The position numbers and the translations under genes were made by a program. The notes under the pieces are model-generated. The model saw only the letters and a list, made by a program, of their open reading frames with translations, did not search any database and was not told the DNA's origin. A stretch of DNA of 64,000 nucleotides from contig JAUVXE010000002.1 in the NCBI GenBank assembly GCA_030603745.1, positions 158,286 through 222,285 of the forward strand, in the 5' to 3' direction. Below are positions 31,792 through 36,114 of this stretch, in pieces. This stretch comes from Coriobacteriia bacterium (GTDB taxonomy: Bacteria > Actinomycetota > Coriobacteriia > Anaerosomatales > SLCP01). Numbering within the stretch: the stretch's first letter is position 1; every line of letters starts with the position of its first letter.

Positions 31792-32181
31792 ATGATGGAG
31801 TGGTACGAGACCCTCGCGAAGCCCTCGTGGGCACCCGCCGCCCCCACGTTCGGGGTGGTGTGGAGCGTGCTCTACCCCATCATCATCGTCGCGTTCGGCT
31901 ACGTGATCTGGCGTGTGCTCACCGGAGAGATGCCGCGCCTGGTGCTCGTGCCCGTGGCCCTCAACATCGTCTCCAACCTCGCGTTCACCCCGGTCCAGTT
32001 CGGGTTGCGCAACCTCGAGCTCGCCTCGGCGGTGATCGTGATCGTGCTCGCCACGATCGTCTGGTCGATGGTGGCGCTCTGGCCGCACGCGCCGGTCGTC
32101 TCCGTCGCGCTCGTCCCCTACCTCGTATGGGTCGCGATCGCCACCGCGCTGCAGATCTCGATCACCCTCATGAACCGGTGA
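31792..32181 (+). CDS. TspO/MBR family membrane protein
   Basis: 129 residues with five hydrophobic helices. TspO features include WYETLAKPSWAPAAPTFGVVWSVLYP at the N-terminus and WSMVALWPHAPVVSVALVPYLVWVAIATALQISI at the C-terminus. TspO proteins bind tetrapyrroles, degrade porphyrin photochemically and influence stress responses. Probably expressed from the leaderless start. Its last 14 bp overlap the convergent 76-residue TGA-containing gene. Confidence 0.85.
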   Translation: MMEWYETLAKPSWAPAAPTFGVVWSVLYPIIIVAFGYVIWRVLTGEMPRLVLVPVALNIVSNLAFTPVQFGLRNLELASAVIVIVLATIVWSMVALWPHAPVVSVALVPYLVWVAIATALQISITLMNR

Positions 32182-32398
32182 CCGCCACCCCGCTCACGGC
32201 CTCGGACCGACGCGCGGCCATGCTGAGCAGGTGCCATCCCGCTGCCGACGTCACGGCGTGGAAGACCAGCCCGCCCGTCAACGCCCCGAGGGTCGTGAAC
32301 CCCTCCACACCGGTGGCCACGGCCACCACGATGTAGACGATTCAAACCGTGCCGATCGCCACCAGCGTGCCGCCGGTGATCCTCATGAACAGTCGCAT
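32168..32398 (-). CDS. Candidate selenoprotein 1: two-helix membrane protein with in-frame TGA at codon 19
   Basis: The frame starts at ATG 32398 with a strong AGGAGGAG six nt upstream and ends at TGA 32168-32170 (76 residues), if the TGA at 32342-32344 is read through. Before it comes a hydrophobic start (M-R-L-F-M-R-I-T-G-G...), and after it the same helix continues as U-I-V-Y-I-V-V-A-V-A. A second helix contains LVFHAVTSAAGWHLL. After the TGA, 51 of 57 codons end in G or C, as in genuine genes here. A hairpin 15-30 nt downstream of the TGA fits a bacterial SECIS. Its stop would otherwise leave an 18-residue product. Paralogous to the neighbouring gene (shared U-I-x-Y and F-H-A). Function unknown; membrane redox or metal chemistry is a guess. 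Confidence 0.7.
32312..32327 (-). other. Putative bacterial SECIS hairpin 1
   Basis: On the transcript: GGUGGC, loop CGUG, GCCACC. This 6-bp stem has its loop starting 20 nt after the UGA (20 nt between). The second loop base is G. In the commonly used bacterial SECIS model the apical loop lies 16-37 nt after UGA and carries a G in its first two positions, so both conditions are met. Confidence 0.55.
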
Positions 32399-32410
32399 CT
32401 CACACTCCTC

Positions 32411-32599
32411 CTATGCGCCGGCCACGCGGATGAGCATCCACAGCCCGAGCACGCCGAACCCGGCGTGGAAGGCGTAGGGCCCAAGCATCGCCGGGGAGAT
32501 GAACGAGGCCTTTCGACGGAGCCCGTCCGCCGAGACGTACGCGATTCAAACGACCGAGAGCACGACCGCCGCTATCGCTCCGACCCACCACCACATCAC
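32411..32599 (-). CDS. Candidate selenoprotein 2: two-helix membrane protein with in-frame TGA at codon 18
   Basis: From GTG 32599 (GGAG eight nt upstream, overlapping the TetR gene's stop region) to TAG 32411-32413, 62 residues if TGA 32546-32548 is decoded. The N-terminal helix begins M-M-W-W-W-V-G-A-I-A and runs through the TGA as V-V-U-I-A-Y-V. A charged loop (DGLRRK) follows, and a second helix holds PYAFHAGFGVLGLWML. After the TGA, 40 of 44 codons end in G or C. TGG is used for Trp in the same frame, so TGA is not a Trp codon. The stop codon overlaps the SD of the next gene. Alternatives are a sequencing error or a decayed gene. Confidence 0.7.
32515..32527 (-). other. Putative bacterial SECIS hairpin 2
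   Basis: On the transcript: GACGG, loop GCU, CCGUC. This 5-bp stem has its loop beginning 23 nt after the UGA, and the first loop base is G. It meets the same distance and loop-G criteria as hairpin 1 although the sequences differ, so the two hairpins are structurally but not sequence conserved. Confidence 0.5.
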
Positions 32600-32613: not shown

Positions 32614-33177
32614 TCACCCGCGGCGCGACGGTCCGCCCGCCCCGAGCATCCTCATGATCGCGGAGACGACCTCCGCGTCCGCGTCGTACTCGCGATGGTC
32701 CCGAACCACGGTCCCGTAGTGCGTGACCATCGCGCCGATCAACCCGTTCGCGAGCTCCGCGTCGTCGATGGCGAACTCGCCCGCCTCGGCGCCCCGTGCC
32801 ACGAGTTCGGTCCCGATCGCGCCGTACGCCCCCGCCATCGCGTCGTAGGCGATCTCGAACTCCTGCAGCCAGTCGGCCTTGGACGTCTCCTGGATGTGCC
32901 GGCGCATCCCGCTCACGACGAGCGTCAGGAACCGCTCCATCTTGCTCGCCCAGTCCGGAGCGTCGGCGATCGCGGCCGCAAGCGCGGCACGCTGCTCCCC
33001 GGCGATCCGGGAGACGACGTAGCGGTAGAGTTCCCGTTTGCTCGAGAAGTGCTGGTAGATCGTCCGCTTCGAGATCCCGAGCTCGGCGGCGACACCCTCG
33101 ACGCTCGCTTTGCCGAAGCCGAAGCGCTCGACATGGCGCTCGAAGGTGTTCGCGATCTCCTCTTTGGTCGCGGGCAT
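32614..33177 (-). CDS. TetR-family repressor of the candidate selenoprotein operon
   Basis: 187 residues. The N-terminal HTH reads RFGFGKASVEGVAAELGISKRTIYQHFSSKRELYRYV; the remaining helices form the ligand/dimer domain (EFEIAYDAMAGAYGAIGTELV). It is the first gene of an operon: the next start (32599) lies 15 bp from its stop and the third gene starts 12 bp after the second stop. A perfect 9+9 bp inverted repeat lies 50 bp upstream of its ATG, so autoregulation is probable. Its inducer is unknown. It is similar in HTH to the TetR at 49596-50138. Confidence 0.9.
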   Translation of the reverse strand: MPATKEEIANTFERHVERFGFGKASVEGVAAELGISKRTIYQHFSSKRELYRYVVSRIAGEQRAALAAAIADAPDWASKMERFLTLVVSGMRRHIQETSKADWLQEFEIAYDAMAGAYGAIGTELVARGAEAGEFAIDDAELANGLIGAMVTHYGTVVRDHREYDADAEVVSAIMRMLGAGGPSRRG

Positions 33178-33226
33178 CCTCGACTCCCTCGGCCGGACCG
33201 TGGCTGCCGCGGGTGCGGCAGCTCAT

Positions 33227-33256
33227 CGGTACACGTTGTTCGTGTCGCGTGTACCG
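33227..33256 (-). promoter_or_regulatory. Palindromic operator upstream of the TetR/selenoprotein operon
   Basis: CGGTACACG, a 12-bp centre, and CGTGTACCG form a perfect 9+9 bp inverted repeat in the gap between the divergent-facing upstream ACT gene and the TetR start. The size and position fit a TetR dimer-of-dimers site. Confidence 0.65.
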
Positions 33257-33293
33257 TATCACGGCGCGCCGATGGGCGCAAGGATGATTCCGC

Positions 33294-34308: not shown

Positions 34309-35034
34309 CTACCTCTCGCGGAACCCGGCGCCGATATGCGAACCGTCGCACATCGGCTTGTTCGCCGAGGCGCCGCACCGGCAGAGCGTGACCCGGTTGC
34401 GGACCTCGTAGGGCTTGCCGTCAACGCCGATCACGCAGATGCCTCCGCGCACCCAGATCGGGCCGCTCACGCCGAGGGCGGGGTCCTCCACGAGCGCGAT
34501 CGACGGTTCGAGCTCCGGTTCGAGCGGCTCGCCGGTACGCTCGTCGACCGCCAGGTAGCGTCCCGACGGGCAGAGCATCGCCTCCTCCTCGGCAAGGGCA
34601 CGGATCGCGGGGTCGTCGCACTCCTTGACGAGGTTCCACAGGCCGCCGGCGCGATCGCAGAAGCGTGCCTCGGCGCAGAGGTGGCGGGCGTCGCGAAGCT
34701 CGATGCCGCTGCTCTCGATCGACACCGAGGACTCCATGTACGACTCGCGGTTCGCGGTCTCGGTGCCGTCGAAGTCCTCGATCGCGTGCGAGAAGTCGCA
34801 GAACGGCTTGTCGCGCGACTTCCCGCACCGGCAGAGCAGGTAGTCGTCGTCGGTCGGGATGCGGCCGGTCTCCCGCCAGGCCACCGACTCACCCTCTTCG
34901 TCGGTCACGATCTCCACACGGACGAGCGGCACGTCGCCCGTGACCGAGTAGGGTCCGTGGTCCGTGACCCTGATGCGCATGCCCGGTGCGGGGACGACCC
35001 CCGGGGCGACCGGGCCCTCGTACTCCTCGCTCAC
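34309..35034 (-). CDS. Double CDGSH iron-sulfur domain protein
   Basis: 241 residues. Two CDGSH zinc-finger-like [2Fe-2S] sites have the 3Cys-1His ligand set: C68, C70, C79, H83 (CRCGKSRDKPFCDFSH, with CDFSH in place of CDGSH) and C218, C220, C229, H233 (CRCGASANKPMCDGSH). Between them lies a segment with Cys residues (RHLCAEARFCDRAGGLWNL ... EEEAMLCPSGRYL) as in DUF1271/Fer4_19-type proteins. Probably a redox or Fe-S transfer protein. The stop of the next gene overlaps its start region. Confidence 0.88.
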   Translation of the reverse strand: MSEEYEGPVAPGVVPAPGMRIRVTDHGPYSVTGDVPLVRVEIVTDEEGESVAWRETGRIPTDDDYLLCRCGKSRDKPFCDFSHAIEDFDGTETANRESYMESSVSIESSGIELRDARHLCAEARFCDRAGGLWNLVKECDDPAIRALAEEEAMLCPSGRYLAVDERTGEPLEPELEPSIALVEDPALGVSGPIWVRGGICVIGVDGKPYEVRNRVTLCRCGASANKPMCDGSHIGAGFRER

Positions 35035-35867
35035 CGGCGGACCTCCATCCGTCGTGGCCGGTCATCACAGATCCTTCGAAGTAGCAGGTAGGCCACCATG
35101 AGCCCCACGCCCGCGATCCAGTAGGGCCGGGTGCTGACCGCGCGCTCGATGAGCGGGCCCGGAGCGGTTCGCTCCACCCGGACCGGCACGTAGCGCTCCA
35201 CGAACAGCCCCCGCCACTCGAGCGTACGGGAGCCGACCCGTTCGACCACGGCGGAGCCCGCGTCGTGCGGCACCTCGATCGTGACATCGTCGCGGCGGGG
35301 ATGGTTCGGGTCGTACACGCGCAGGAGCGTGTAGGAGGGGTGGATCTCGGCGGCCCACGCGAGCACCTGGTGGTTGCGGGCCATGCGGACCATGCCGAGC
35401 GAGGCCACGAGCCCGAGGGGCACCGGTCGCCCCGTCGCGAGTTCACGCGTGATGGCCGGAAGCGCCGCCCGCGCCGCCCGCGCGGCGCCGAGTCGCGCGC
35501 GCGTGGGCAGGTAGGTCAGCAGCACGAAGCGCCAGAGGTTGATCCCCAGCCCGGTCGTCACGCTCGCGATCTGCCGACGCCACACGTAGCGGGCCAGTGC
35601 CGAGTCGTACGCGGGAGGCGCCCCGTCAGCGAGGCCGGGAGGCGGCTCGGTGGCGTGAAAGTGGTCCAGTGCCGCGAAGATCATCCCGCCGCACCGCCCG
35701 GGCGAGGAGAGCACGCCCAGCAGCGTGTCGCGCCACCGGTTGGGGAAGGCGAACCCGTGCTCGCTCGGACGGAACGCGGTCGAGACCACATCCCTCACGC
35801 CCGTGCCCGCTCCTCGGCTCGCCTCGGCCAACGCACGCCCCTTCCACGCGATACGGTCATGCCGCAT
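35031..35867 (-). CDS. Uncharacterised papain-like cysteine-peptidase-fold candidate with C-terminal helix
   Basis: About 278 residues. The N-terminal half has HGFAFPNRWRDTLL, then SPGRCGGMIFAALDHF with a candidate nucleophilic Cys. Later come HQVLAWAAEI and LRVYDPNHPRRDDVTI, giving a Cys-His-Asn/Asp order like papain-type enzymes. A hydrophobic helix near the C-terminus (YWIAGVGLMVAYLLL) may anchor it. Enzyme function is inferred from motif order only. The start is uncertain: ATG 35867 lacks a good SD, and TTG downstream of GGAAGGGG is an alternative. Confidence 0.6.
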   Translation of the reverse strand: MRHDRIAWKGRALAEASRGAGTGVRDVVSTAFRPSEHGFAFPNRWRDTLLGVLSSPGRCGGMIFAALDHFHATEPPPGLADGAPPAYDSALARYVWRRQIASVTTGLGINLWRFVLLTYLPTRARLGAARAARAALPAITRELATGRPVPLGLVASLGMVRMARNHQVLAWAAEIHPSYTLLRVYDPNHPRRDDVTIEVPHDAGSAVVERVGSRTLEWRGLFVERYVPVRVERTAPGPLIERAVSTRPYWIAGVGLMVAYLLLRRICDDRPRRMEVRR

Positions 35868-35952
35868 TCTACCCGACAGCCCGCTGGGCGTGACGGCGGC
35901 GGGCTTGGGGTATGACCCCGGCAGGGCCCTTCGCCGAGAGGACCACCGACCG

Positions 35953-36114
35953 ATGTGCTCAGAGGAGCGACCCTCGTCCGGCTCGTATCTCGCGAACCTC
36001 CGCGCGCCGATGCCGCTCGGCCGCAAGGTGCGGCTGATCGTCCGCAACGTCGGCCGGCGGCTCGTGCCGCGACCCTCGGCGTGCTGCGGGAACCACGGCG
36101 AGCCCGGGTGTTGA
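35953..36114 (+). CDS. 53-residue basic protein with C-terminal CCGNHGEPGC
   Basis: Starts at ATG 35953 with GAGAGGA ten nt upstream and ends at TGA 36112-36114. The middle is strongly basic (GRKVRLIVRNVGRRLVPRP) and the end is the compact motif C-C-G-N-H-G-E-P-G-C, suggestive of metal or Fe-S binding or of a zinc knuckle. It is divergent from the papain-like gene. I do not know a described function. Codon use is normal for the region. Confidence 0.6.
   Translation: MCSEERPSSGSYLANLRAPMPLGRKVRLIVRNVGRRLVPRPSACCGNHGEPGC

Follow-up and report, generated by a model that had tools for sequence, protein, structure and literature searches.

Two adjacent genes in a Coriobacteriia genome, here called A and B, very likely encode a pair of selenoproteins that form a new family, a reading to which we assign a probability of about 0.9. 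They lie in a 64,000-nucleotide stretch of contig JAUVXE010000002.1 (hereafter, the window), and each would carry selenocysteine (Sec) in the first transmembrane helix of a tiny two-helix protein. The case is built on comparative data, without protein-level evidence, and the figure excludes biochemical function. Most of the bacterial selenoproteins known so far are soluble thioredoxin-like or metal enzymes. A and B, with Sec within transmembrane helices and always found together, would be a new place for selenium chemistry and a small, tractable system.

Two tandem genes share an in-frame TGA

Gene A (window positions 32411–32596, minus strand) runs from an ATG at 32596 to a TAG at 32411–32413 and encodes a predicted 61-residue two-helix membrane selenoprotein (MWWWVGAIAAVVLSVVU...YAFHAGFG...); a GTG at 32599 is a possible alternative start. 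Gene B (32168–32398, minus strand) runs from an ATG at 32398 to a terminal TGA at 32170–32168 and encodes a predicted two-helix membrane selenoprotein of 76 residues (MRLFMRITGGTLVAIGTVU...GLVFHAVTS...). The in-frame TGA is codon 17 of A counted from the ATG, or 18 from the GTG (Sec17; 32546–32548, minus strand), and codon 19 of B (Sec19; 32342–32344, minus strand). Both TGAs sit in the same 10-nt context, GTTTGAATCG, inside the first hydrophobic, transmembrane helix. Read through the TGA, each gene yields two hydrophobic helices, with FHA conserved in the second, and most codons past the TGA end in G or C (40/44 in A, 51/57 in B).

The pair is conserved across two phyla

The tandem A-B pair occurs in 16 genomes from two phyla, represented by Coriobacteriia and Chloroflexota. 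Our profile searches covered 398 genomes of the class and, for a relative labelled Candidatus Aquidulcis (Chloroflexota), 396 genomes of its class plus 400 of its phylum, as well as all 69 genomes of the order; one named-genome scan was added to these. Six of the 16 genomes belong to the window's order, and ten came via the class or phylum of the Candidatus Aquidulcis-labelled relative. Fifteen of the 16 carry TGA at the aligned column in both genes, and one (G085) carries TGC, encoding Cys, in both. No residue other than Sec or Cys was seen at this column among the 16 A and 16 B sequences.

Conservation centers on Sec and a single His. Across A and B together (16 + 16 sequences), only the Sec/Cys column and one His are invariant. 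These are also the only invariant columns within the 16 A sequences, and the 16 B sequences have five (Gly, Sec/Cys, Val, His, Gly). Pairwise distances among A sequences correlate with those among B (Mantel r 0.82, 0/5000 permutations), the pattern expected for partners inherited together. In G008, from another genus of the same taxonomic family as the window, A is 79% and B 67% identical to the window's proteins, with one TGA in each gene. Past the TGA, differences between the two genomes fall mostly at third codon positions (13/23 in A, 26/47 in B).

Sequencing or assembly error, or decay into pseudogenes, would make the TGAs unreal or the frames dead, and is all but excluded. In its favor, the window genome is in 28 contigs, most homologues come from draft or metagenome assemblies, and gene A of G563 has one extra TAG. 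Against it stand the recurrence of TGA at a single column in 30 genes (15 genomes, two phyla), the third-position bias of the differences from G008, the invariant His and a compensating hairpin described below. Moreover, one TGA pair lies on a contig of 2,068,322 bases (G1012), which we take, on its exact length alone, to be the chromosome of Dehalogenimonas etheniformans GP, a cultured, dechlorinating organism whose closed, hybrid-sequenced chromosome has 2,068,322 bases (PMC7729418). Because this pair sits on what we take as a closed, deeply sequenced isolate chromosome, sequencing error is excluded for the family; the window's own raw reads are not among the evidence. The extra TAG in G563 falls at codon 4 of A (L113:3945-3960, plus strand), where relatives have Trp, and error or decay is possible there.

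Also remote is the reading of UGA as a true stop, under which A and B would yield 16–18-residue products, read through now and then, that serve as leaders sensing selenium or a drug or as single-helix peptides. Termination competes with Sec insertion in all bacterial selenoprotein genes, and the pair lies behind a TetR regulator; both points speak for this reading. Against it, residues past the TGA are conserved across phyla with the His invariant, and G085 makes the whole protein, with Cys in both genes. We also rejected a regulatory leader peptide: the downstream parts are conserved, and there is no downstream gene for a leader to regulate because A and B come last in their same-strand gene group in the window, with a convergent gene beyond.

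A SECIS-type hairpin follows every TGA

A hairpin is present in all 30 TGA genes, and its loop always begins exactly 20 nt past the UGA. A G occupies loop position 1 or 2 in 30/30, fitting the published bSECIS layout. In the window, the hairpin of A (32513–32533, minus strand; ucggcgga-CGGGC-uccgucga) has 8 bp, a loop start 20 nt past the UGA and an energy of -10.9 kcal/mol; that of B (32311–32328, minus strand; ugguggc-CGUG-gccaccg) has 7 bp, the same loop start and -10.6 kcal/mol. Both satisfy all criteria of the published bSECIS model, namely a stem of 4–16 bp, a loop of 3–9 nt with G within its first two positions, a loop 16–37 nt past the UGA and a minimum free energy (MFE) of at most -7.5 kcal/mol. 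The loop is typically GGUC in B genes and CGUGU in A genes.

Compensatory changes preserve these stems. In B, the six inner pairs are paired in 15/15 genes, and all six show two-sided (compensatory) changes; in A, the four inner pairs hold in 15/15 genes, and two-sided changes occur at three. We compared the summed energies of 16 genes (8 A and 8 B) with a synonymous-codon null that holds protein and codon usage fixed, obtaining z-scores of -6.1 for A and -6.4 for B (0/1000 each). The pooled z-scores count related sequences as independent and are therefore optimistic. The result also stands for single genes: none of 1000 synonymous versions reached the energy of B from G149, and none of 1000 that of B from L076. 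Several Chloroflexota A genes have a hairpin of only 4–5 bp that, in isolation, is weaker than the model limit of -7.5 kcal/mol. In G085, the Cys genome, B retains a hairpin at the 20-nt position and A lacks one, a pattern that looks like a relic of Sec use. Together, these 30 bacterial SECIS elements share a single spacing and show compensatory changes, which makes them a clean natural data set.

The host is equipped for selenoprotein synthesis

The window genome (G000; 2.14 Mb, 98.5% complete, 28 contigs) encodes the machinery that Sec insertion calls for. It carries selB (375.9 bits, over the curated cut-off), a tRNA-Sec gene, selC, with a UCA anticodon (72.1 bits), and selD (368 bits, one TGA), together with a 473-residue reading frame between selD and selB that we take to be selA. 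All four genes lie within one cluster. The in-frame TGA of selD (L009:12083-13114, minus strand, G000:C20) falls close to the N-terminus (SSKAGUAAKW) and is followed by a 9-bp hairpin with its loop 16-17 nt past the UGA; from sequence alone, we infer that the selenophosphate synthetase SelD of this genome is itself a selenoprotein. Since the genome carries selA, selB, selC and a Sec-containing selD, the organism is equipped for selenoprotein synthesis.

Relatives largely share this capacity. Among nine genomes examined, tRNA-Sec or selB is present in the window genome, G036, G072, G149, G085, G398, G437 and G563; seven further Chloroflexota genomes with the pair fall outside this count. G072 has no SelB over the cut-off, yet has tRNA-Sec. 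In G008 (85% complete), neither selB above the cut-off nor tRNA-Sec was found, and its tRNA matches are serine tRNAs. For G1012, one of those seven, the literature supplies the machinery: selCDAB is reported throughout the genus Dehalogenimonas (PMC13390414), and a report on D. alkenigignens gives it tRNA-Sec and lists SelD and formate dehydrogenase as selenoproteins (PMC4918011). G085, with Cys in both A and B, keeps selB and two tRNA-Sec (UCA) genes (L126 and L132; G085:C1:89187-89279 and 91494-91586, minus strand), which lie on the same strand about 2.2 kb apart.

The UGA could in principle be read as some other residue, such as Trp, through a changed code or a suppressor, and the hydrophobic surroundings would accept Trp. 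Three observations all but exclude this: gene B of the window and other family genes terminate at TGA, the sole sense codon at the site in homologues of both genes is Cys, and the sel genes occur along with a SECIS-type hairpin. Selenocysteine insertion remains the preferred reading, in which SelB and Sec-tRNA, guided by the hairpin 20 nt behind each UGA, would insert Sec in the first transmembrane helix of A and of B. Insertion, membrane location and the partnership of A with B are all inferences, well supported and without experiment.

Much of this agrees with an earlier note made without homologues or database searches. That note had described two adjacent minus-strand frames with one TGA each in an identical 10-nt context, which held when the frames were rechecked, and its counts of codons ending in G or C past the TGA match ours. 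It had argued that two independent errors were unlikely; this also held, since both the TGA and the protein sequence past it are shared with another genus of the same taxonomic family and recur across 15 genomes of two phyla. Its central claim, Sec insertion, is strongly supported by comparative data, with no protein-level evidence. Three checks came out in its favor: the host has selA, selB, selC and selD; homologues show only TGA or Cys at the site, with no third residue; and a pair stands on the G1012 contig, equal in length to a closed isolate chromosome. The SECIS-type hairpin, found in every TGA gene, was absent from its argument.

The family appears to be undescribed

A and B likely constitute a previously undescribed selenoprotein family of unusual architecture. 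Searches of Pfam, NCBIfam and PDB sequences assigned no family, returning only weak, inconsistent matches to unrelated families and none in PDB; the best of these, TMEM61 (E 0.00035), appeared in two of 18 members scanned. In NCBIfam, 0/18 members scanned match any family at E <= 0.01, and a Foldseek search with the fused model described below was likewise empty at E <= 0.001. No entry in a 2026 catalogue (PMC13188914), which lists 119 families of prokaryotic selenoproteins, is described as a two-helix pair of this sort. The family has probably escaped description because standard annotation cuts genes at TGA, and it appears undescribed despite a homologue on a contig matching the cultured, fully sequenced D. 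etheniformans. The earlier note knew of no described family like this one, and that held within Pfam, NCBIfam, PDB, the catalogue and the literature searched; that literature was open-access only, and a description elsewhere is not fully excluded.

Known selenoproteins offer partial parallels. As in bSECIS selenoproteins such as the E. coli formate dehydrogenases and SelD, SelB would read a UGA that is closely followed by a hairpin, homologues with Cys exist, and Sec occupies a conserved functional position. Unlike those proteins, A and B have Sec inside a transmembrane helix of 61–76-residue proteins, two in tandem. The SAO and Tso operons (PMC13188914) likewise hold more than one selenoprotein gene, probably serving one pathway, but A and B are different proteins: the catalogue gives NCBIfam models for Sao and Tso, and A and B match none. 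Sec forms of the mercuric transport protein and of YeeE/YedE in the catalogue also place selenocysteine in a membrane protein, but no sequence similarity to A or B was detected.

A and B show opposite charge bias

The two proteins are adjacent small paralogues with opposite positive-inside bias, and so satisfy the criterion for opposite-topology pairs. Summed over 16 members, the loop of A holds 45 K/R and its tails 0 and 1. In B, the loop holds 5 K/R against 19 D/E, the C-tail 46 K/R and the N-terminal part 25 K/R. Under the positive-inside rule, this opposite bias therefore places A N-out/C-out, with a cytoplasmic loop, and B N-in/C-in. Adjacent paralogues that face opposite ways in the membrane typically belong to antiparallel heterodimers. 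On charges alone, and only weakly, we infer that the most likely assembly of A and B is a four-helix antiparallel heterodimer, its two Sec-His pairs at similar bilayer depth.

Structure prediction informs the depth of these residues. We built an AlphaFold2 model of an artificial A-B fusion, an in-frame A-B stretch with the intervening stop read as Gly. Its alignment used only eight naturally in-frame A-B stretches because, when single A and B rows were aligned to the fusion, the B rows landed on its A half. The model has four helices (3-26, 35-61, 64-95 and 103-137; pLDDT 80.3, pTM 0.64). In the A half, helix 1 continues for nine residues past Sec17, and helix 2 begins nine residues ahead of His44; in the B half, Sec85 and His113 each lie ten residues from the corresponding helix ends. 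From these residue counts, we infer that each Sec sits at about the same membrane depth as its His. The model neither supports nor opposes the heterodimer because the linker is too short for an antiparallel arrangement.

Two-gene small membrane transporters of opposite topology include paired SMR proteins (EbrAB) and paired Fluc/CrcB channels. A and B resemble both as adjacent tiny paralogues with opposite K/R bias and a probable antiparallel heterodimer. Unlike EbrAB-type pairs, they have two helices each rather than four and a Sec-His pair in place of a membrane glutamate, and transport has not been shown. Membership in the SMR family failed on two counts: A and B have no Pfam match to it, and with two helices each they miss its four helices per subunit.

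Support for possible TetR control comes only from Coriobacteriia

A TetR-family regulator gene (32614–33177, minus strand; TetR_N match, E 2.6e-10) lies directly upstream of A, giving the operon order tetR-A-B. The same order occurs in G008, G036, G072, G149 and G085; across the six genomes of the window's order, tetR, or its 3' end at a contig cut, is directly upstream of the pair. Upstream of tetR in the window is an operator-like palindrome, ACGGTACACG-N12-CGTGTACCGA (33226–33257, no strand assigned), recognized by sequence and without binding data. Similarly spaced palindromes precede tetR in three genomes (the window's, G008 and G149) and also lie, further upstream, in G085. In G149 and G085 a gap parts tetR from A, and a second palindrome falls within it. 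Palindromes before tetR and in the tetR-A gap are the pattern expected of an autoregulated repressor of the pair.

We infer from gene order and palindromes, with no binding data, that in Coriobacteriia a TetR repressor would control both its own gene and the induction of the pair. No adjacent tetR was recognized at the Chloroflexota loci inspected, so TetR control is not general. The earlier note's claim that the pair is under TetR control finds only partial support, in Coriobacteriia, from the upstream gene and the operator-like palindromes.

Neighboring genes give few clues to a substrate. No neighbor is common to all genomes among the neighborhoods examined, and a plasmid search found nothing. 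Genes that we take to be GyrI-like, identified by reading the sequence, adjoin the pair in G398 and G085. The TetR and GyrI-like neighbors hint, as one possibility, that the inducer is a toxic agent, either a small lipophilic compound or a metal. Separately, a TspO/MBR family gene lies near A-B in the window (31792–32181, plus strand) and in G149 (L080:1068-1781, minus strand), and a gene with a TWRD...RCGGM motif lies near the pair in the window (35031–36047, minus strand), G008 and G149.

Possible chemistry of the Sec-His site

The function of the pair is a matter of inference, and the membrane redox role proposed in the earlier note remains one. Our leading proposal is that A and B, of opposite topology, would pair antiparallel, placing two Sec-His pairs inside the bilayer. 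The site may then perform selenol chemistry in the membrane, as a redox relay or by reducing or trapping a lipophilic electrophile. The support is weak and the proposal speculative; we would give it no better than balanced odds, and rank it above soft-metal binding or export.

That competing reading accepts A and B as selenoproteins but has an intramembrane Sec2-His2 site bind or move a soft metal (Hg, Cu, Cd or As) rather than act in redox. Two Sec and two His at similar depth would make a plausible four-ligand site, Sec variants of the mercuric transport protein and of a Cu/Zn efflux transporter are catalogued (PMC13188914), and a small, toxic ligand is suggested by the genes that adjoin the pair, tetR in Coriobacteriia and the GyrI-like ones in G398 and G085. 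Against it, no metal-resistance gene appears among the conserved neighbors, and no MerR- or ArsR-type metal regulator was recognized adjoining the pair. On balance, we lean against it.

Selenol redox or electrophile chemistry remains the preferred function. A bolder structural reading, which we hold tentatively and think rather more apt to fail than to stand, is an antiparallel heterodimer with two-fold-like Sec-His sites mid-membrane. If true, it would be a new minimal selenium-based device by which electrons, or a soft ligand, cross or leave the bilayer.

In the Cys genome G085 (L081:2980-3399, plus strand), each protein has a second Cys about one helical turn from the first (CSVAC in A, CMMWIC in B). 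This arrangement, a single case, fits thiol redox or metal-thiolate chemistry.
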